Source of the DNA: an uncultured Acholeplasmatales bacterium
GTDB taxonomy: Bacteria > Bacillota_I > Bacilli_A > Acholeplasmatales > Anaeroplasmataceae
Direction of reading: 5' to 3'
Assembly (NCBI GenBank): GCA_944324705.1
Contig: CALUXI010000012.1
Location: forward strand, 1 to 48,135
DNA: 48,135 bases
This document shows, one piece after another, positions 9,296-44,653 of the stretch (position 1 is its first letter; each line of letters opens with the position of its first letter). The notes beneath the pieces were generated by a model. That model was not told the DNA's origin. It was given only the letters and a program-made list of their open reading frames with translations, and made no database searches. The position numbers and the translations under genes were made by a program.

Positions 9296-10639
9296 ATGAT
9301 GCAAAATACCTATCAAGAGTTATGGGAAAAAACAAAAAATTGTTTAGCTGATGACTTAGGGGAATCTACTTTTGATAATACTTTTGCGAAAGTTAAGGAA
9401 GTAATTAAATTTCAAAATAATATCATTTATGTATTAGTTCCTGATAATTATACTCAAGTAAGAATTAATCACATGTATATTGAAAAAATTAATGAAATAT
9501 TAAATACTTTTACTACTCAAAAACTAAAATTTAAGTTTGTTTGTCAAAATGAAATAAAAAAAGAAGAAACTCCAATTACTTCTAACAATAGACTTTACTT
9601 AAATCATTTAAATGAAAACCATAGTTTTGAATCATTTGTCGTTGGGGAATCAAATAACTTTGCTTATCGTATTTGTTTAAACGTAGCTGAACAACCTGGT
9701 TTTATTGGTAACCCCCTTTATATTTTTGGTGGTGTAGGTCTTGGTAAAACCCATCTTATGCAAGCGATTGGTAATTATATTTTAGATAAAGATTTAAATA
9801 AAAAGGTTTTATATGTTCAAGCTAATGATTTTATTGTTGATTATTCTAAATCTACTCAAACTGGTAATATGGATTCCTTTAACGAAAAATATGGGGATTT
9901 AGATTGTTTTTTAGTTGATGATATTCAAATGCTTGATGTTGGGACTAAGAGTCAACAAGAATTTTTTAAACTATTTAATGATTTAATTAATCGTAAAAAA
10001 CAAATTGTAATTACAAGTGATAAGCCGGCAAATCAATTGAAAGGAATCATGGAACGTTTAACTAGTAGATTTTCTCAAGGTATGACAGTTGATATTAAAA
10101 AGCCAGATTTAGAACAAAGAGTTAATATTTTAAAAAGAAAATCCCTTGAATTAACGCCAAAAATTATTCCTGATGATGTTCTTTATTTTATCGCCCAAAA
10201 TTTTACTGATAATATTAGAGAACTTGAAGGAGCTTTAAATAGAGTTATAGGTCATAGTGATGTATGTAATTATAATGATATCACTTTAGAGAAAGCAAAA
10301 GATGCTTTAGAGGCATTACTTGCATACAAAAAGAATAATCATTATGACGAATCTAATAGTTATGATGCTTTATTAAGTATTATTGCTGATTTTTATGGCA
10401 TTACTGTCAGTGATATATTATCTACTAAACGTAAACAAAATTATGTTTTACCTAGACATATTGCTATGTATATTCTAAAACAAAACTTTAATTATCCTTA
10501 TGCTAAAATTGGAGTTATTTTAGGAAATAGGGATCATACAACAATTATGAATGGTTGTAATAAGATTGAAGATGAGATTAAGCAAAATAAAGAGTTAAAA
10601 ATGGCAGTTGATACTATTTTAAAAAAAGTGAATAAGTAG
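9296..10639 (+). CDS. dnaA: Chromosomal replication initiator DnaA
   Basis: DnaA binds DnaA boxes at oriC, unwinds the adjacent DNA and loads the helicase. The 447-residue protein has an N-terminal domain I (about 1-80), a short linker, the AAA+ domain with Walker A GGVGLGKTH and Walker B FLVDDIQML, and domain IV with the DNA-binding signature PRHIAMYILKQ and GNRDHTTIMNG. Two ATG codons are adjacent (9296, 9299); AAGGGGTGAT supports either. Its stop is followed by more DnaA boxes before dnaN. Confidence 0.98.
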   Translation: MMQNTYQELWEKTKNCLADDLGESTFDNTFAKVKEVIKFQNNIIYVLVPDNYTQVRINHMYIEKINEILNTFTTQKLKFKFVCQNEIKKEETPITSNNRLYLNHLNENHSFESFVVGESNNFAYRICLNVAEQPGFIGNPLYIFGGVGLGKTHLMQAIGNYILDKDLNKKVLYVQANDFIVDYSKSTQTGNMDSFNEKYGDLDCFLVDDIQMLDVGTKSQQEFFKLFNDLINRKKQIVITSDKPANQLKGIMERLTSRFSQGMTVDIKKPDLEQRVNILKRKSLELTPKIIPDDVLYFIAQNFTDNIRELEGALNRVIGHSDVCNYNDITLEKAKDALEALLAYKKNNHYDESNSYDALLSIIADFYGITVSDILSTKRKQNYVLPRHIAMYILKQNFNYPYAKIGVILGNRDHTTIMNGCNKIEDEIKQNKELKMAVDTILKKVNK

Positions 10640-20176: not shown

Positions 20177-21469
20177 TTATAAGAACATAGCCATATATAA
20201 AGGGAGAGAAATAATATTTCCTTTTACTCCTACATTACCATTTATGAATTTAATACCATATAAATCAGGATTTTCTTTTAAAAAAGTCAATAAAGATTTT
20301 GCCTTATTATTACTTGCTTTACATTCGATTGGTAAAGGCTTACCATTAAAACTTATTATAAAATCTATTTCTAAACTATTATTTCTATTGTAATAATAGA
20401 CAGTATGATTATGACATAATAATTCTTTTAATATAACATTTTCAATTAATGCCCCGTTATAAACTCCCAAGTCATTATTTATAATAATATTACTAATATT
20501 TCTATCACGGAACATACCAAGTAACAGTCCAGTATCATTAGTATATACTTTAAATGAAGATTGATCCTTGTAGATTAAAAGAGGTAAATTAACTTGCTTA
20601 ATGTTATAGCATAAAGTAATGAAATTGGCATCTTCTAACCAATTTAGACTACCTAAATATTTTGAACTTCTACCATTTTTTTCAACTAATTTGTAGGTAA
20701 ATTTTTTATTTTCTTTAGCTAATTGTAAGGGAATAGAATCATAACACAAGGTAGCTTTAGTTTTCTCACTATTATCAGCATATTTGGCAATATCATTACG
20801 ATACCCTTCTAAAATAGCACTTATTTTGTCATATACTTGACTATAATCATTACTTTGTAAATAAGTTGTAACTACTTCTGGCATACCACCAATAACAATA
20901 TATTTTCTAAAATATTCTAGCATTTTAAGATTAATGCCATCGTTAATTTTCTCTCTTTTATTAAATTTGTCTCTTAGATTATTTATTATAGAAGAATCAA
21001 CATTAAAAGCCCATAAAAATTCTTCAAAATCTAAAGAATAGAGTTTTAAATAATCAACATAACCAACAGGATAAGATTTAACTTCTTTATAATGTAAGCC
21101 AAGTAAACTGCCTGATGAAATGATATCTAATTCGTTTTGCATAGATAAAAATTTTAAAGCTGTTATAGCATTAGGGCACTCTTCTATTTCATCTAAAAAC
21201 AATAAAGTTCTACCCGGTACTATTTTTAGATTAGTATATAATGTCAGATTTTCTTTAATAGTTTTATAATCTAAACCATTAGAAAAAATGTCTTTATATC
21301 TTGTGTCAGTAATAAAATTAAGTTCTATTAACAAATCATAATAATTTTTACCAAATTCTCTAATAGCTGTTGTTTTACCAACTTGTCTAGCCCCATATAC
21401 AATTAACGGTTTTTTATTTTTTTTATTTTTCCAAACAACAAAATCATTAATTATTTTTCTTTTTAGCAT
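20177..21469 (-). CDS. AAA_14/DUF4143 ATPase with PD-(D/E)XK-like motif, copy A
   Basis: The 430-residue protein has a P-loop (IVYGARQVGKTT, about 24-35), Walker B (LLFLDEIEECP), the ISSGSLLG sensor and a DUF4143 C-terminal half with NSLEIDFIISFNGKPLPIECKAS, an Asp...Glu-x-Lys pattern of PD-(D/E)XK nucleases. The cellular role of this widespread family is unresolved. An upstream ATG at 21481 exists, but GGTGAT lies just before the ATG at 21469, which gives MLKRKI, as in copy B (MLKREI). It stands alone, opposite to the replication direction, behind three 32-bp repeats. Confidence 0.85.
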   Translation of the reverse strand: MLKRKIINDFVVWKNKKNKKPLIVYGARQVGKTTAIREFGKNYYDLLIELNFITDTRYKDIFSNGLDYKTIKENLTLYTNLKIVPGRTLLFLDEIEECPNAITALKFLSMQNELDIISSGSLLGLHYKEVKSYPVGYVDYLKLYSLDFEEFLWAFNVDSSIINNLRDKFNKREKINDGINLKMLEYFRKYIVIGGMPEVVTTYLQSNDYSQVYDKISAILEGYRNDIAKYADNSEKTKATLCYDSIPLQLAKENKKFTYKLVEKNGRSSKYLGSLNWLEDANFITLCYNIKQVNLPLLIYKDQSSFKVYTNDTGLLLGMFRDRNISNIIINNDLGVYNGALIENVILKELLCHNHTVYYYNRNNSLEIDFIISFNGKPLPIECKASNNKAKSLLTFLKENPDLYGIKFINGNVGVKGNIISLPLYMAMFL

Positions 21470-21509
21470 AGTAATCACCATTGTTATTATATACTTTATA
21501 ATATTAATT

Positions 21510-21608
21510 TACAACATAATAACAATTATTCGATGGAAAAAATGTCATTAATAACATTTATTGGGCCGAAAAAATGTTAACAGCAACAATTATTCGAACG
21601 TAAAAATG
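21510..21608 (-). repeat. Three 32-bp tandem repeats upstream of ATPase copy A
   Basis: Read on the minus strand, three consecutive units of 32 bases begin ACATTTTT(A/T)C and continue with a variable triplet, then CGAATAATTGTT or a close variant. The starts are at about 21608, 21576 and 21544. Units 1 and 3 are closest; unit 2 has CCAATAAATGTT. They fill the space between the hit gene and the ATPase, so they probably hold its promoter and operator. Confidence 0.75.
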
Positions 21609-21611
21609 TAA

Positions 21612-22010
21612 TTAGCTATTAATTTTATTTAAGACATCATCTAAATTAGTATCTTTGCTGTGATCGGTAAAATTAATATTTAAATCATCATTTTTATATC
21701 TTGGTAAGATATGAATATGGTAGTGCATAACTGTTTGTCCAGCTGCTTCATCATTATTATTTAAGATGTTAATCCCATCAGCATGTAATTTATTCTTTAA
21801 TTTAATAGCTAATTCTTTTACTATTTTAATTAGATGAGCTAAAGTGTCATCATCTATTTCATAGATATTAGCATAATGTTTTTTTGGCATAACTAAAGTA
21901 TGACCGTAGGTTGCTTGAGATAAATCAAGGATAGCTATAACTAAGTCATCTTCATAAACTATTTTACTAGGTATTTCTTTATTTATTATTTTACAAAATA
22001 TACAATTCAT
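21612..22010 (-). CDS. HIT family nucleotide-binding protein
   Basis: HIT proteins hydrolyse or transfer nucleotidyl groups from dinucleotides or AMP conjugates. The 132 residues start MNCIFCKIINKEIPSKIVYE, the usual CxxC family start, and carry the histidine triad HYHIHILPR near residue 100. The frame opens at 22055, but AAGGAG lies 7-8 bases before the ATG at 22010, which matches the family start. Confidence 0.93.
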   Translation of the reverse strand: MNCIFCKIINKEIPSKIVYEDDLVIAILDLSQATYGHTLVMPKKHYANIYEIDDDTLAHLIKIVKELAIKLKNKLHADGINILNNNDEAAGQTVMHYHIHILPRYKNDDLNINFTDHSKDTNLDDVLNKINS

Positions 22011-23626: not shown

Positions 23627-26600
23627 ATGAATATTAAGAAAGTTTTATCAAGAATTTTTCTTGGTATGTGCTGTGTTACAGGTATAACAGCTAGTTCTGT
23701 TGTTTTAAGTGCTTGTAAGACAGAAGTCAATGAAACTCAAGAGTTTACGGTAACTTTTAATACTCTTGGAGGTTCAAGTATTGATAGTGTAAAAATCAAA
23801 GACGGAGAAAAAGTTACAAAACCAACTAGCCCTACAAGAGATGGTTATACGTTTAAGTATTGGTCACTACAACAAGATGGGGAAGAATATAATTTTGATA
23901 CAGCGGTTACTGGGGATGTTACACTTTATGCTGTATGGGAAGAAAATCAAGATCAAGTAGAAAAATATACGGTATCATTTAATACTGTAGGTGGAAATGC
24001 AATCGATTCTGTTGAAGTAGAAAAAGATGGTAAAGTTACAAAACCAGCTAATCCTACAAAGAGTGGTTACACGTTCAAATATTGGTCCTTAGCACAAGAA
24101 GGGGAAGAATATGACTTCAATACACCTGTAACTGGTGATATTACTCTTTATGCTGTATGGGAAGAAAATCAAGATCAAGTAGAAAAATATACAGTTACAT
24201 TTAATGCTGTAGGTGGAAGTGAAGTTTCTGCTATTGAAGTTGAAAAAGATGGTAAAGTTATAAAACCAGCTGATCCTACAAAAGAAGGTTATATTTTTAA
24301 ACATTGGTCTTTAACAGAAAATGGTGAAGCATATGACTTTAATACCCCAGTTACTTCTAATATTACATTATATGCGATATGGGAGGAAGAAACTGATGTT
24401 CCACCTGTTGAAGAGACTGAAACACTAACTAGAACATTAGATGTTACAATAACTGATTTGGCTACTGATACTAGTGGTAAAACAATTAATGATGAAGTTG
24501 TTGGTTATTTTACTTTAGGTAAAGGTATGAAACTTGAGGGTAATTGTATTAATACGCAAGGTAAATCAATTACATTTACTACTACTTCAGCTGGTGTATT
24601 AACAATTGTTGCAGAAGGAGCATCAAGTAATGCAAATAGTGATGTCTCTATAGTAGATCGTGAAGGAAATAGTACATATTTAGATACTTTAGAAAATAAA
24701 GTACGAAAAACTATCACTTGGAATATTCCTGTTGCTGGAACTTATACAATAGAACAAAGTAAATCTATTAGAGTTTATTCTATGAGTTATACTGAAACTG
24801 TTGAAAAATCAGATCCTAGTGCTGTTGAAATTAATAATTTACCAAATGTAAATTTCTTAGAAGGTAGAGAATTTGATTATAATGGTTTAAATGTTAGTTT
24901 AATTTACGAAAATGGTAGAGAGGATGTATTGTCAGCTAGCTCTTATACTGTATCTGGTCCAAGTGCTGATGATATGAAAACACCAGGTGTTTATACAGTT
25001 ACAATTTCAGCTAAAGTTGAAGGTTTAGAAAATCCTTTAACTACAAGCTATGATATTGTTGTTTATGATTTAGATTCTATTTCATTATCTTTATTAGATT
25101 ATCAAAATAAAACTAATGTTTATACACAAACCATTTTTTTAGTTAATGATGAATTTAATTATGATAATTTAGTAGTAATCGGTCATGGTAAATATGAAGA
25201 CAAAACATATGATTTTGTTTTAGATGCTAGTGAATATAAGGTTTCTAATCCTGATCTAACAAGTAAAGGTAATAAAGAAGTTACGGTTACTAGTGTTATT
25301 GATAATACTAAGACTAAAGGTTATGTAGTTGATGTAGTTGAAAATGTAATTGGCAGTGAAGCTGAACAAATAGATATTACAATTACCGCTGGTGCCTCTA
25401 CAAGCGTATCAAATGAAGAGTTAGTATTTGGTTCTATCAATGAAGCTTTAGCTTATTTAGCTTTAGTTAATATTGATGACGATGTAATTAAAGTTTTAAA
25501 TGTTGGCGAAGGTACATTTGAAGAAAAGATTGAAATCACTCTTCCTAATGTTCATTTAATTGGATCTAATCCAGATATTAATACTTCAAAGACTATAATT
25601 ATTTATGGAGCTTATAATGGCTTAACCGTTCCTAGCGGCGCTGGAACATATAGTACAGATGGTTCTGCAACCTTAACCATTTCTGCAAGTGCAGTTGGTT
25701 TTGAAGCTAAAAATATTACAATTGAAAATGAAATTAATACATTAGAAGAATATAAAGCAGTTGCTTCAGATGACAAACAAGCTGTAGCTGTTATGGTTGA
25801 AGCTGATCAAAGTATATTTGATACAGTAAGATTTAGTGGTTACCAAGATACATTATATGCACGTAATGGTCGTCAATATTATATTAATTGTTATATTGAA
25901 GGTAGAACTGATTATATCTTTGGTGAAGATGCTACTGCTATCTTTGAAAACTCAGAAATAAAATCAATTAGTGCTGGTAATGATGATACTAATGGTGGTT
26001 ATATCATAGCTACTAAAGGTGTGGAAAATTTAAAATATGGTTATATTTTCAATAATTGTAAGTTTACAGCTAGTGAAGATGTTGTAGCTGGTACAGTTTC
26101 AATTGCACGTGGTTGGGATAATTATATGACAACTTTAATTATGAATTCAGAAATTGGTAATCATATTTCTAAAGAAGCTTATGGTGAAGTTACTGCTACT
26201 GGTAAAAATAAGAATGATCGTTATGGTAATATGAATGCTGATCCTGATGCTTCAAGATTATTAGAATACAATAATACTGGAGAAGGTGCTATTGCTGAAT
26301 CATTAGTTAATACATGTACAGTTTTAACGGAAGAACAAATTGCAGAATATTTGAAAGATGGTTCTTTAGATTACGTAAAGATTTATGGCAAGGATACTAA
26401 TGGTTTAAATTACACAAATGACTGGACAGCAAACAAAGTAGCTTATGATGCAAAAATTGAATATTATTATAATGATGAATTATTATATACGCAGCAAGAT
26501 TATGTGGGAACTACTATAGATTCTCTTTATACACCTGAATCAATTCCTGATATGGCATTTGTTGGTTGGTACACAACTTCAACACTTGATGAAGGTACAG

Positions 26601-27157
26601 AATTTGACTCTACAAAACCACTTGAAGCAGAAACAAAATTATATGCTAAATATGAAGTTGGTTCTATAACTGAAAATTTAAGATTTGATTCATACGCACA
26701 AGAAACGAGTTATAGTGCCGGCAAAGAAATATATGCTGGAACATATTATAGTTTCGGGGTTGATGCTACATCTACTGGCGGTGCTGAAACATGGCAAACT
26801 CAATTCGCTAGTCCTGCAACATCAAATACTCAACCAGCTCTTGCATTTACTTCAGCAGTTATGGCTACTAGCTCAAACCGTGTATTTTATTTAACATCTA
26901 CTACTAATAACTTAGAAATAACCATATATTATACGATTAGTAATAGTGGTTTTGAGACTGGAGAAGTTAATCAAAAAGCTGGAGAATTAACAATTGATGG
27001 TCAAACAGTTCCAGGTTATGATAGTAGAGGTAAGATGGATAGCAATATTGGCTATGCAGTAAAAACAACCGTTTCTGCTGGACAAACTATTTTAATTGGT
27101 GAAAATTCTGGAAGCAATAGACTAATAATTTATGGAATTGATGTTGCTGTAAAATAA
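23627..27157 (+). CDS. Pectin methylesterase lipoprotein with InlB-type repeats
   Basis: This protein removes methyl esters from pectin outside the cell. The 1176 residues begin with a lipoprotein signal (VLSAC, Cys near 30). Three tandem Listeria/Bacteroides-type repeats follow (about 42-255, each ending LYA(V/I)WEE), then a beta-sandwich domain, two bacterial Ig-like domains (about 395-575) and the pectinesterase beta-helix (about 585-920). The helix carries GYQDTLYARNGRQYY and RTDYIFGE with the catalytic aspartates and the later ARGW. A fourth InlB-like repeat (about 985-1045) and a C-terminal domain ending NRLIIYGIDV complete it. It is the first gene of the lipoprotein block. Confidence 0.88.
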   Translation: MNIKKVLSRIFLGMCCVTGITASSVVLSACKTEVNETQEFTVTFNTLGGSSIDSVKIKDGEKVTKPTSPTRDGYTFKYWSLQQDGEEYNFDTAVTGDVTLYAVWEENQDQVEKYTVSFNTVGGNAIDSVEVEKDGKVTKPANPTKSGYTFKYWSLAQEGEEYDFNTPVTGDITLYAVWEENQDQVEKYTVTFNAVGGSEVSAIEVEKDGKVIKPADPTKEGYIFKHWSLTENGEAYDFNTPVTSNITLYAIWEEETDVPPVEETETLTRTLDVTITDLATDTSGKTINDEVVGYFTLGKGMKLEGNCINTQGKSITFTTTSAGVLTIVAEGASSNANSDVSIVDREGNSTYLDTLENKVRKTITWNIPVAGTYTIEQSKSIRVYSMSYTETVEKSDPSAVEINNLPNVNFLEGREFDYNGLNVSLIYENGREDVLSASSYTVSGPSADDMKTPGVYTVTISAKVEGLENPLTTSYDIVVYDLDSISLSLLDYQNKTNVYTQTIFLVNDEFNYDNLVVIGHGKYEDKTYDFVLDASEYKVSNPDLTSKGNKEVTVTSVIDNTKTKGYVVDVVENVIGSEAEQIDITITAGASTSVSNEELVFGSINEALAYLALVNIDDDVIKVLNVGEGTFEEKIEITLPNVHLIGSNPDINTSKTIIIYGAYNGLTVPSGAGTYSTDGSATLTISASAVGFEAKNITIENEINTLEEYKAVASDDKQAVAVMVEADQSIFDTVRFSGYQDTLYARNGRQYYINCYIEGRTDYIFGEDATAIFENSEIKSISAGNDDTNGGYIIATKGVENLKYGYIFNNCKFTASEDVVAGTVSIARGWDNYMTTLIMNSEIGNHISKEAYGEVTATGKNKNDRYGNMNADPDASRLLEYNNTGEGAIAESLVNTCTVLTEEQIAEYLKDGSLDYVKIYGKDTNGLNYTNDWTANKVAYDAKIEYYYNDELLYTQQDYVGTTIDSLYTPESIPDMAFVGWYTTSTLDEGTEFDSTKPLEAETKLYAKYEVGSITENLRFDSYAQETSYSAGKEIYAGTYYSFGVDATSTGGAETWQTQFASPATSNTQPALAFTSAVMATSSNRVFYLTSTTNNLEITIYYTISNSGFETGEVNQKAGELTIDGQTVPGYDSRGKMDSNIGYAVKTTVSAGQTILIGENSGSNRLIIYGIDVAVK
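23750..24390 (+). repeat. 222-bp tandem repeats coding for InlB-type domains
   Basis: Within the methylesterase gene the coding repeats recur every 222 bases (74 codons). The junctions around 23924-23972 and 24146-24194 are almost identical over more than 40 bases, much more alike than the repeat interiors. This suggests recent duplication or gene conversion and a possible change in repeat number. Confidence 0.75.
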
Positions 27158-41164: not shown

Positions 41165-42724
41165 ATGGAATTTGATGTAATATATTTAGGTACAAGATCG
41201 TGTACTATTGAAATTGATAATCATAATCCTTATTATGCAGAAAAACCTTATAGTGTTTATGTTAATGATGAATTATATGCATCTGATGTAAAGACTAATA
41301 TCTTTTCTATTTATAATTTAGAGCCTAATAAGAATTATGAAATTATTGTTGATGATGGAAGTCTACCTAAATTCTTCCAACAAATTAAAACTAAGAAAGA
41401 ATATGTAACAATTAATGTTAAAGATATAGGGGCTCATGGTGATGGTAAGACTTTAGATACTAATTTCTTACAGGCTGCTATGGAAGTGTGTCCTAAGGAT
41501 GGTAGGGTATATATTCCGGAAGGAACATATTTAACAGGTCCTTTATTCTTAAAGAGTGATATAACTATTGAATTACACCCTAAGGCTCACCTTTTAGGTG
41601 CTACAGATCGTAAGTTATATCCTATTTTACCAGGTATGATATATGCAACTGATGAAAAAGGAGAATATAACTTAGGTTCTTGGGAAGGAAATCCTATTAG
41701 CTGTTTTGCAAGTATTATAACTGGTGTTAATATTAAAAATGTTAATATTATCGGTACTGGTATTATTGATGGTAATGCTCAAAATAGTGATTGGTGGGTT
41801 AATATTAAAGAAAAAAGAGGAGCTTGGAGACCACGTGGGGTTTTCTTAAATCACTGTGAAAATATTTGTTTTCAAGGTGTTACAGTAACTAATACCCCAT
41901 CATGGAACTTACACCCATATTTCTCTAAAAATATTCGCTTTATTGATATGAAATTAATAAGTCCTAAAGATAGTCCTAACACAGATGGTTGTGATCCTGA
42001 ATCATGTAAAAATGTTGACATTATTGGTGTTCATTTTAGTGTTGGTGATGATTGTATTGCTATTAAAGCAGGTAAAATTTACATGGGTGCTAAATATAAG
42101 AAACCATCAGAAAACTTTAATATTCGCAATTGCTCAATGAATTTTGGTCATGGTGCGGTTGTGTTAGGTAGCGAAATGGCCGGTGGTATTAAAGATATTA
42201 AAGTTTCTAAGTGTATCTTTAATGAAACTGATAGAGGTTTACGTATTAAAACAAGACGTGGTAGAGGGAAAGATGCAATTATTGATGGTATTACATTTGA
42301 AAACATTAAAATGGATAATGTTTTAACACCACTTGTAATTAATATGTTCTATTTCTGTGATCCTGATGGTAAAACTGAATATGTTTGGTCTAAAGAAAAA
42401 CTACCTGTTGATGATAGAACACCATATTTAGGAAAATTCACTTTCAAACATATTGATTGTCAAAATGTTAATTGTGCGGCCGGAGCTTTCTATGGTCTTC
42501 CAGAACAACCAATTGGGGAAATCAATTTTAATGATGTTCATTTTACATATGCTGATAATCCTCAAGCTGGTAAACCGGCTATGATGAGTTTTGCTGAAGA
42601 TATTAAAGGTAAAGGTTTATTATTTAACTATGTTAAGAAAGTAAATATGAAAGATGTAACATTTACTAAACTAAATGATAAACCAATTGAATGTGTAGAA
42701 GTTGGAGAAATAAATCAAGAATAA
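41165..42724 (+). CDS. Cytoplasmic polygalacturonase, GH28
   Basis: This glycoside hydrolase cuts oligogalacturonides. The 519-residue protein has no signal peptide. An N-terminal fibronectin-III-like domain (about 1-85) precedes the beta-helix (VKDIGAHGDGKTLDTNFLQAA). All four GH28 signatures are present: NTDG (about 272), GDDCIAIK (about 294), GHGAVVLGSE (about 328) and RIKTR (about 360), which include the catalytic aspartates. Absence of export means it acts on imported fragments, consistent with the preceding importer genes. A terminator follows. Confidence 0.93.
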   Translation: MEFDVIYLGTRSCTIEIDNHNPYYAEKPYSVYVNDELYASDVKTNIFSIYNLEPNKNYEIIVDDGSLPKFFQQIKTKKEYVTINVKDIGAHGDGKTLDTNFLQAAMEVCPKDGRVYIPEGTYLTGPLFLKSDITIELHPKAHLLGATDRKLYPILPGMIYATDEKGEYNLGSWEGNPISCFASIITGVNIKNVNIIGTGIIDGNAQNSDWWVNIKEKRGAWRPRGVFLNHCENICFQGVTVTNTPSWNLHPYFSKNIRFIDMKLISPKDSPNTDGCDPESCKNVDIIGVHFSVGDDCIAIKAGKIYMGAKYKKPSENFNIRNCSMNFGHGAVVLGSEMAGGIKDIKVSKCIFNETDRGLRIKTRRGRGKDAIIDGITFENIKMDNVLTPLVINMFYFCDPDGKTEYVWSKEKLPVDDRTPYLGKFTFKHIDCQNVNCAAGAFYGLPEQPIGEINFNDVHFTYADNPQAGKPAMMSFAEDIKGKGLLFNYVKKVNMKDVTFTKLNDKPIECVEVGEINQE

Positions 42725-42727
42725 TAA

Positions 42728-42757
42728 ATAGCTAAGGCAATACCTTAGCTATTTTTA
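42728..42757 (+). terminator. Terminator after GH28 gene
   Basis: ATAGCTAAGG and CCTTAGCTAT form a perfect 10-bp stem with a five-base loop followed by a T run. It ends the importer block. Confidence 0.92.
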
Positions 42758-42761
42758 ATGT

Positions 42762-42892
42762 TTGAAAACTGACAAAATGTTATATTAATTTTACTTGAAA
42801 ACTTACAAAAAACAATATATAATTTTATTGAAAACTGACAAAATATTGTATCAATTTTACTTGAAAACTGACAAATGTAATAAAATATAGGG
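42762..42892 (+). repeat. 33-bp tandem repeats upstream of ATPase copy B
   Basis: Three full units of 33 bases start at 42762, 42795 and 42828 and a partial fourth at 42861. Each begins TTGAAAACT(G/T)ACAAA and most end in AATTTTA(C). The array begins just after the GH28 terminator and runs into the ribosome site of the ATPase gene. Because every unit carries a TTGAAA that can serve as a -35 box, the array probably contains both promoter and binding sites for a regulator. It is not a CRISPR: there are no spacers. Confidence 0.85.
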
Positions 42893-42901
42893 TGATTAAT
42901 T

Positions 42902-44209
42902 ATGTTAAAAAGGGAAATAGAAGATTATATATTCAATTATTTAATTAGTAATTCAAATAAAATTTTATGTATAACAGGGGCTAGGCAAATAGGTAAAACT
43001 TACATAATTAGAGAAGTGGCTAAGAGAGTTTATAGTGACTTTATTGAAATCAATATGGCTAGTGATAAATTAGGACCGAAACTATTTAAAAATGTTAAAA
43101 CTATAGATGATTTTTATTTGAGGGTTAGTATTGTTGCTGGTCCTAAATTTAAAGAAAAAAACTTAATATTTATTGATGAAATACAAGAATATCCTAATTT
43201 ACTTACTTTATTAAAGTTTTTAAGAGAGGATAATAAATATAGGTTTATTTGTAGTGGTTCTTTACTCGGTATAACTTTAAAGAAGACAACTTCTATACCT
43301 ATTGGTTCTATAATTGAAAAGAAAATGTATCCTTTAAGTTTAAGGGAGTTTTTATGGGCTTCTGATGTTAATGAAAATTATATAGAACATCTTAAAAATA
43401 ATTACTTAAATTTAAAAGAACTACCAGAAGAGGAACATAATTATATAATGCATTTATTTAAATTATATTTATTAATTGGTGGTTTACCAGATAGTATTAA
43501 TATTTATAAAGAAACTAATAATATTTATAAAGTTAGAGAATATCAAGACAGTGTTTTAAACTATTATTTAGATGATGCTAGTAAATATGATGAGACTAAC
43601 AAATTAAAAGTAAAAAGAATTTATCAAATGTTGCCATCTAATATTGATAATAAAATTAAACGTTTAAATTATAAAGCTATCGAAGATAAAGAAGGAAAAG
43701 GGTATAGTGATTATGAAAGAGAAATTGAATATTTAATTTCTTCAGGTATTGCCCTAGAAACTAAGGCTATATCTAATCCTAAATTTCCTTTAATTGAATC
43801 TAGTAGTAAAAATTTAATTAAGCTATATTTAAATGATGTTGGGTTACTAACTAATATTTTATATAAATATAATATTAATGTAATTCTAGATGATGTAAAT
43901 GTAAATTTAGGGGCAGTTTATGAGACATATGCAGCTTGTGAGCTTAAAAATAAAGATTATAAGTTATATTATTTTGACAAGAGAAAAGAAGGCGAAGTAG
44001 ATTTTTTATTAGATGATTATGATAATTTGTGTGTTAAGCCAATTGAAATAAAATCAGGAAAAAACAGTCAAAATTATAGAGCTTTACCTAAGATTGTAAA
44101 CAATAGTGAATATAATGTGAAAGCTGGATATGTATTTTATAATAAAAAAGAAGTTTTAGAAAAAAATAAAATAATTCATTTACCTATTTACTATCTTATG
44201 TTTCTTTAG
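42902..44209 (+). CDS. AAA_14/DUF4143 ATPase with PD-(D/E)XK-like motif, copy B
   Basis: The 435-residue protein has the same plan as the gene at 20177: P-loop (ITGARQIGKTY, about 27-37), Walker B (LIFIDEIQEYPN), the sensor ICSGSLLG, and a DUF4143 half with KEGEVDFLLDDYDNLCVKPIEIKSG (Asp...Glu-x-Lys). Overall the two copies are clearly diverged. AGGGTGAT precedes the ATG. Unlike copy A it is followed after eight bases by a small gene. Function is unresolved; an ATP-driven nuclease or DNA-handling role is inferred. Confidence 0.85.
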   Translation: MLKREIEDYIFNYLISNSNKILCITGARQIGKTYIIREVAKRVYSDFIEINMASDKLGPKLFKNVKTIDDFYLRVSIVAGPKFKEKNLIFIDEIQEYPNLLTLLKFLREDNKYRFICSGSLLGITLKKTTSIPIGSIIEKKMYPLSLREFLWASDVNENYIEHLKNNYLNLKELPEEEHNYIMHLFKLYLLIGGLPDSINIYKETNNIYKVREYQDSVLNYYLDDASKYDETNKLKVKRIYQMLPSNIDNKIKRLNYKAIEDKEGKGYSDYEREIEYLISSGIALETKAISNPKFPLIESSSKNLIKLYLNDVGLLTNILYKYNINVILDDVNVNLGAVYETYAACELKNKDYKLYYFDKRKEGEVDFLLDDYDNLCVKPIEIKSGKNSQNYRALPKIVNNSEYNVKAGYVFYNKKEVLEKNKIIHLPIYYLMFL

Positions 44210-44217
44210 GAGGAATT

Positions 44218-44622
44218 ATGTTAGAATTAACAATTTATAGTGATAATATTTTAAGTAAAAGTTTTGATGAAAATATAATTAATGATACCATTAAAGATAT
44301 AGGTATTAACAATAAACTTTTTAAATATCCTGATTTAAGTTATTATAAATCATTAGAAAAAAGAAGAAGTTATATTCTTTCTAATGATGAAATAAATAAA
44401 ATATTAAATTCTAAGTTTGAAGAAAGAGAAGAAAAATTAGTTAAATTATTATTGGATTTAATAGAAAATAAAGTGATATTTATTAATGATGAAATAAAAG
44501 AATTCTTTAAATTAATTAAGAGATTTAGAAATTATGGTAGACTAGATGAAATGTATGAATATCTAAATGATAATAAAGAAGAATTATTTGTAGCTACTAA
44601 ATTAGAAATAAGAATAAAATAA
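44218..44622 (+). CDS. Small protein of unknown function paired with ATPase copy B
   Basis: The 134-residue protein is charged, mainly helical in appearance, and has no signal peptide or membrane segment. It contains runs such as SLEKRRSYILSNDEINKIL and KFEEREEKLVKLLLDLIENK. I do not recognise a family. AGGAGG precedes the ATG, only eight bases after the ATPase stop, so the two genes form one unit ending at the next terminator. A partner or regulator of the ATPase is the simplest guess. Confidence 0.7.
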   Translation: MLELTIYSDNILSKSFDENIINDTIKDIGINNKLFKYPDLSYYKSLEKRRSYILSNDEINKILNSKFEEREEKLVKLLLDLIENKVIFINDEIKEFFKLIKRFRNYGRLDEMYEYLNDNKEELFVATKLEIRIK

Positions 44623-44653
44623 AATGGAGTTTTTTTGACTCCATTAATTTTTT
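44622..44653. terminator. Bidirectional terminator
   Basis: AATGGAGT (44623-44630) and ACTCCATT (44638-44645) pair around a seven-base T-rich loop, with T-rich sequence on the plus strand and A-rich sequence upstream. It serves the small gene and the converging permease gene, whose stop codon lies within it. Confidence 0.85.

Follow-up and report, generated by a model that had tools for sequence, protein, structure and literature searches.

A stand-alone PDC-S01 defence-candidate gene and its upstream array of 33-bp repeats, a probable private operator

A gene for an ATPase with a nuclease-like C-terminal domain, in an uncultured Acholeplasmatales bacterium, is preceded by an array of direct repeats whose core sequence is its own. 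Because nearly every relative in its subfamily carries its own version of such an array at the same place, we read the array as a private docking site for the encoded protein. The sequence comparisons make it likely that this is a stand-alone, horizontally moving PDC-S01 defence-candidate gene that keeps itself repressed by means of a private operator with helically phased cores. The protein very probably binds the repeat cores directly; negative autoregulation is the probable outcome, repression being preferred over activation on geometry; and the link to defence, a case of guilt by embedding, is somewhat favoured.

The array, its gene and the insertion that carries them

The window, the whole stretch analysed, comprises 48,135 bp of contig CALUXI010000012.1. 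The array, the promoter and their surroundings are laid out as follows.

42726..42754: terminator-like stem-loop, bidirectional, closing the upstream GH28 gene at its 3' end; marks the left edge of the insertion by empty-site comparison
42762..42882, + strand: 33-bp direct-repeat array of 3.7 units, proposed private operator (TRF, core scan, shuffles)
42762..42777, + strand: core 1, TTGAAAACTGACAAAA (core scan)
42795..42810, + strand: core 2, TTGAAAACTTACAAAA; the TTGAAA inside it is the -35 of the best promoter-like site
42795..42823, + strand: sigma-70-type promoter TTGAAA-17-TATAAT (11/12), with its -35 in core 2 and its -10 in the spacer
42828..42843, + strand: core 3, TTGAAAACTGACAAAA; would overlap the predicted transcription start
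42861..42876, + strand: core 4, TTGAAAACTGACAAAT (core scan)
42902..44209, + strand: AAA_14/DUF4143 gene, 435 aa, PADLOC PDC-S01 (PDLC04792, E 6e-152)
44218..44622, + strand: orphan 134-aa ORF in the same insertion, which is no conserved partner of the ATPase gene; starts 8 bases past the 44209 stop
44623..44645: bidirectional terminator-like stem-loop; right border of the insertion

TRF ranks the array as the top non-coding one in the window (period 33, 3.7 copies, score 156). Its cores, of the form TTGAAAACTKACAAA, start at 42762, 42795, 42828 and 42861, in steps of exactly 33 bp, and the upstream region has a repeat score of 39.2, against a best of 17.4 in 300 dinucleotide shuffles. About 6 bases separate the end of the array from a Shine-Dalgarno-like GGGTGAT, and the ORF starts at 42902. 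A sequence-only reading of this DNA had described 3.6 repeat units running into the ribosome site of a P-loop ATPase gene with an Asp...Glu-x-Lys pattern, the whole bounded by terminators on both sides. Each element holds up: TRF counts 3.7 units and the shuffles are exceeded, the AAA_14/DUF4143 ORF contains D367...E382-x-K384, and stem-loops lie at 42726-42754 and 44623-44645, with four terminator-like sites found where 0.2 would be expected. Elsewhere in the window, 222-bp tandem repeats (23810-24388) fall within a 1176-aa ORF (23627-27157) that probably encodes a repetitive surface protein.

Comparison with congeners places the gene in an insertion. In two of them (G003, G004) the GH28 gene and an ABC permease gene lie 30-35 bp apart, at the point where the window has a 1.9-kb insertion; a third (G002) has a sister-clade PDC-S01 gene at this point, and a fourth (G005) two other, unrelated ORFs. 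Empty in two congeners and variously filled in two, the site (window 42724-44644; L216, L218, L219, L220) is thus an insertion hotspot, and what had been proposed as a self-contained or mobile cassette can be described as a variable, probably mobile insertion. COG1373 also figures in a published list of horizontally shared gut-bacterial genes (PMC10782964).

The 134-residue gene, previously taken as a member of the module, has no support as part of it. No relative lies downstream of any of 113 homologues, its matches in 99 other genomes are at chance level, and it has no Pfam match above cut-off and none in PADLOC, NCBIfam or PHROG. The absent relatives and absent profile matches rule it out as a partner, toxin or antitoxin, and to judge from these comparisons it is cargo or an ORFan. 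No recurrent downstream partner was seen among the 113 homologues, as expected of a single-gene system.

The genome (1.64 Mb in 55 contigs) has about ten DUF4143 genes plus fragments; a second copy in the window has an array of its own.

20177..21481, - strand: copy A, a PDC-S01 paralogue; its start is more likely at 21469, after GGTGAT
21517..21614, - strand: copy A array, three 32-bp units with a different core (TRF)

Broken or partial AAA_14/DUF4143 copies occur in this same genome (G000) at C2:7313-8419, C1:96875-97261, C14:29985-30260, C17:15856-15984 and C28:14947-15081, suggesting rapid gain and loss.

The encoded protein matches the PDC-S01 profile PDLC04792 over its full length (residues 1-435, E 6.1e-152) and the Pfam families AAA_14 (E 7e-26; 91.1 bits against a gathering score of 27) and DUF4143 (E 3e-21; 76.1 bits against 28.1). 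Its principal features are these.

42977..43000, + strand: Walker A, residues 26-33, GARQIGKT
43169..43180, + strand: Walker B, residues 90-93, FIDE
43607..43837, + strand: winged-helix region (AF2 model, covariation), residues ~236-312, proposed to read the core
44000..44053, + strand: PD-(D/E)XK motif D367...E382-I-K384 in an alpha-beta-beta-beta-alpha-beta arrangement (alignment, AF2 model)

Across 37 aligned sequences, G26..K32, D92-E93 and G194-x-P196 are invariant, the last corresponding by analogy to the GxP motif of STAND NTPases; D367 and K384 are likewise invariant among these relatives, and E382 nearly so. The AF2 model (pLDDT 91.7) comprises a P-loop domain, a helical domain, a winged helix and a C-terminal alpha-beta-beta-beta-alpha-beta domain, so that the P-loop, helical and winged-helix fold of STAND proteins is found together with Walker A, Walker B and GxP. 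A sequence search of solved structures with the protein gave no match. By structure, VIA-align places the archaeal STAND ATPases 2QEN (PABY2304; Z 17.0, 273 residues aligned at 4.9 A) and 2FNA (SSO1545; Z 15.4) first, followed by CED-4 (Z 15.1) and plant NLRs; Foldseek ranks generic AAA+ proteins first. The structural matches listed lie within residues 1-353 and leave the C-terminal nuclease part outside; the likeness to 2QEN and 2FNA, the best matches, covers residues 1-321 and so stops short of that domain. The secondary-structure order of the domain fits PD-(D/E)XK, although folded alone without an alignment it reaches a pLDDT of only 40. On its best reading the model shows an AAA_14 ATPase of STAND-like build that carries a winged helix and, at its C terminus, a putative PD-(D/E)XK nuclease domain. 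We know of no operator array for the 2QEN and 2FNA ATPases.

Upstream arrays and private cores across the subfamily

The bacterial relatives compared come from the genome itself, from 100 related genomes and a collection at species level, and from annotated plasmids and phages. The operator idea had been staked on repeats of 30-35 bp recurring upstream of orthologous genes, and they do recur: direct repeats spaced by about 33 bp stand just upstream of the start codon in 96 of 110 subfamily genes, about 13% having no clear array, and in 0 of 29 genes of the sister clade. Among 113 non-redundant genes having enough upstream DNA, which still include near-identical orthologues so that the counts are not fully independent, the best self-match lag is 33 in 69, 32 in 15, 34 in 6 and double that (64-66) in 7. 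A repeat score of at least 15 is reached by 83 of these 113 genes and by 7 of 201 control ORFs from the same loci, the seven exceptions tracing mostly to repeats that encode coiled coils or to de-duplicated copies of the family genes themselves. Over 638 kb of loci, there are 77 strong repeats of period 32-34 upstream of family genes and almost none in other non-coding DNA.

Array-bearing relatives span at least six phyla and include genes of Segatella, Prevotella, Agathobacter, Collinsella, Glaesserella, Vibrio, Acinetobacter, Parabacteroides and Fusobacterium, with further arrays in Treponema, Petrimonas, Croceitalea and Melioribacteraceae loci. No candidate stretch on viral contigs encodes a relative; relatives with arrays do occur on human-gut scaffolds that were deposited as phage without annotation. 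Could such repeats be functionless, AT-rich tandem sequence produced by chance or slippage? The genome is AT-rich and slippage does create tandem repeats, but the same period and place recur in more than 90 diverged genes of several phyla, with the core kept while the spacer varies, and the repeats are absent from the sister clade and rare in control genes (7/201). The comparative data already refute such an origin, which we regard as scarcely credible.

Two orphan repeats were noted in passing: a non-coding 33-bp repeat with no gene, beside a tRNA-like stretch (L131, 2787-2843), perhaps the remnant of a lost cassette, and a 32-bp repeat built of TCTACACGAT units, flanked by a PDC-S01 gene and groES-like genes (L041, 3189-3264).

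Each repeat unit consists of a gene-specific core of ~14-16 bp, resembling TTGRAAAAGTGTA, and a variable spacer. Expectation-maximisation, seeded by eye but with the spacing withheld, converged on TTGRAAAAGTGTA and placed 237 sites in 97 of 124 upstream regions; neighbouring sites of this spacing-blind motif lie 33 bp apart 110 times, 32 bp 13 times and 34 bp four times, with no other distance occurring more than three times. Arrays contain 2-6 cores within 200 bp. The core type differs from gene to gene (GCG, GTG, CCG, CTGACA and others) and is constant within an array, the spacers varying.

Core sequence follows protein sequence, as the earlier reading had proposed to check: protein and core similarity are correlated (Mantel r 0.37, permutation p 0.001). 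Two windows of the protein predict the core over and above its overall identity (corrected p 0.004 each), namely residues 206-220, the helix before the winged helix, and residues 256-270, the helix-turn-helix of the winged helix; this covariation is modest (partial r about 0.27) and its null models phylogeny incompletely, so the evidence that the winged-helix region reads the core is suggestive.

The cores also keep to their own genes. Allowing one mismatch, the core of the 42902-44209 gene has four occurrences genome-wide, every one of them within the array of that gene. With this gene, six were examined for exclusivity, one core at a time: the cores of copies C6, C19 and C17 (two mismatches) and of the orthologues in G031 and G053 likewise fall in their own arrays, bar one two-mismatch match. 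Each gene's core is thus shown by sequence to be private, confined to its own array and changing with the protein. Since the cores are so confined, the array is unlikely to be part of a regulon or to mark a genome-wide target.

Promoter geometry and what the array may do

Located by a consensus scan in which the -35 model is similar to the core, -10-like hexamers are most frequent at +11 from the core start (28 arrays) and at +23 (18 arrays, in positions that fall outside the core), against a mean of 4 per offset. Two registers emerge: in one, the TTGRAA of the core serves as the -35, followed by a 17-bp spacer and a TATAAT in the spacer of the repeat; in the other, the 3' end of the core is the -10. 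The spacing of 33 (32-34) bp puts all cores on the same face of the DNA, in agreement with the earlier remark that 33 bp is about three helical turns. We infer repression mainly because binding to the cores would cover the promoter. The suggestion of self-control by the ATPase, with the repeats as its binding sites, gains weight from the survey, with repeats at 96 of 110 genes and cores that co-vary with the protein.

On the reading that we prefer, subunits of the protein would bind the cores through the winged helix and oligomerise along the array, excluding RNA polymerase and holding a potentially toxic nuclease at a low level. A change linked to infection, be it in nucleotide state, in DNA state or by titration of the protein, would then free the protein from the array; more speculatively, its release might raise expression, leave the ATPase-nuclease free to act, or both. 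As the operators are private, many paralogues could coexist in one genome without cross-talk.

An alternative is that the array is an upstream activating platform on which the ATP-bound protein polymerises and recruits RNA polymerase, in a positive feedback like that of MalT- or IniR-type STAND proteins. The fold is of STAND type, IniR, a STAND-type ATPase, binds and activates a promoter (PMC5760070), and in some cases the array stops 60-100 bp before the gene, a separate promoter following downstream. In most arrays, however, the cores cover the -35 or the -10, and the last core, which starts between -16 and -60 in most genes and often extends into the start region or the Shine-Dalgarno sequence, sits where a repressor would. 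Activation therefore seems unlikely to us.

The array might instead be a DNA substrate, nicked or cut by the PD-(D/E)XK domain or used as an iteron- or centromere-like site in the replication or recombination of a mobile cassette. The nuclease motif is intact (D367 and K384 invariant), the ATPase core also resembles the origin-repeat binders Orc1/Cdc6, and the cassette is probably mobile. Yet the array is bound to the promoter of the gene in two fixed registers, the borders of the cassette are terminators beyond the array with no array copy at the opposite end, and no replication gene accompanies it; we consider this explanation improbable. The comparison with Orc1/Cdc6 has its own limits. Those proteins are AAA+ ATPases with a winged helix and with repeats close to their own gene; they differ in their origin function, in a site sequence that is shared and in being without PD-(D/E)XK, the structural match is partial (2QBY, 2V1U), and no such family is among the Pfam or NCBIfam matches of our protein.

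A third alternative is a transcribed array whose RNA restrains the protein, as in type III toxin-antitoxin systems, of which ToxIN has tandem repeats (~34-36) upstream of one protein gene. The tandem units here are of like length and also precede a single protein gene, and the array would be partly transcribed in some genes, including the one at 42902-44209. ToxIN differs in having an RNA antitoxin, a small RNase toxin and a terminator between them, none of which was found at 42762-44209: the protein is a 435-aa ATPase and not a small RNase, no terminator separates array and gene, and -10 boxes lie inside the array. The array RNA folds no better than shuffles (z +0.97) and has no Rfam match near the gathering score, on which grounds an RNA antitoxin or guide was ruled out; restraint by RNA is very improbable. 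Nor does the array resemble a CRISPR array, the spacers being AT-rich promoter DNA, the cores gene-specific and cas genes absent from its neighbourhood. Self-repression through a private operator is the preferred reading.

Known systems and related PDC-S01 groups

PDC-S01 is ranked fourth in abundance among the defence systems of prokaryotes, at 9,986 instances in archaea and 29,494 in bacteria (about 39,500 in all), and is described as an ATPase fused to a PD-(D/E)XK domain, experimental validation pending for most such candidates (PMC12988326); in rumen genomes it is reported as the most frequent single locus (PMC13356809). Our gene is like these in profile family, in being a single gene with ATPase and PD-(D/E)XK domains, and in occurring in many copies per genome and in gut and rumen bacteria. 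The difference lies in the upstream array: the descriptions of PDC-S01 that we cite from PMC12988326 and PMC13356809 come without regulation or an upstream array, and activity stands there as 'pending'. In the open-access literature we found no description of such arrays and no account of a PDC-S01 mechanism.

Among known regulators the closest counterpart is RptR, which represses a defence island as a separate protein bound at three direct repeats over its -10 (PMC12255303). The likeness lies in the repression of defence genes via direct repeats over the -10; but RptR is small, works as a homodimer, and has repeats that are 9-bp palindromes and a single conserved site (PMC12255303), whereas in our system the presumed effector itself would read private, gene-specific 33-bp repeats. 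In an Argonaute-positive strain of Thermus thermophilus, an AAA_14/DUF4143 gene rises 6.6-fold with plasmid DNA (PMC4406477); one member is therefore inducible, though the finding does not indicate by what means.

A gene-specific DNA site that accompanies nearly every member of a subfamily is a candidate ligand for binding, footprinting, structural and reporter assays. The private arrays suggest how a dangerous nuclease stays quiet and how many paralogues coexist per cell, and they could act as a sequence signature by which to find and classify PDC-S01 members.

Other PDC-S01 groups show different spacings. In the sister clade (~400 aa, PDLC04787), 15 of the 16 genes with any signal have it at 40-42 or 75-87 bp, and palindromes or half-sites lie around promoters (L182, L183 and others of L156-L185), as where GTAGAATTCTAC palindromes 76 bp apart flank a promoter. 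An alphaproteobacterial group (PDLC04790) has sites of TTCCAAT/AATTGG or TCAATCGGTCGG about 22 bp apart, strongly in Salipiger (L201, score 26) and weakly in Ensifer, Sinorhizobium and Rhizobium (L224-L226); the region upstream of the Agrobacterium PDC-S01 gene has no repeat spacing of note. The shared theme appears to be a private operator spaced in whole helical turns particular to each group, the pattern being thinner beyond the 33-bp group. It is conceivable, if doubtful, that the entire family consists of self-sensing effector-regulators, each a nuclease and its own sole DNA-binding regulator, resting on a private operator whose geometry is set per subfamily (two turns in the alphaproteobacterial group, three in the 33-bp group, about four or 7-8 in the GIRRCGKS group) and triggered when the on-array state is lost in infection. 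Were this true, private operators would explain the stacking of ten or more copies per genome.

Two observations concern plasmid-borne copies. On a plasmid of Fusobacterium animalis, the end of the PDC-S01 gene runs into a gene for RNA 2'-phosphotransferase, the two overlapping (L149, 3840-4379), and genes in the vicinity of plasmid PDC-S01 copies include those for AbiE, HipA and type III restriction.
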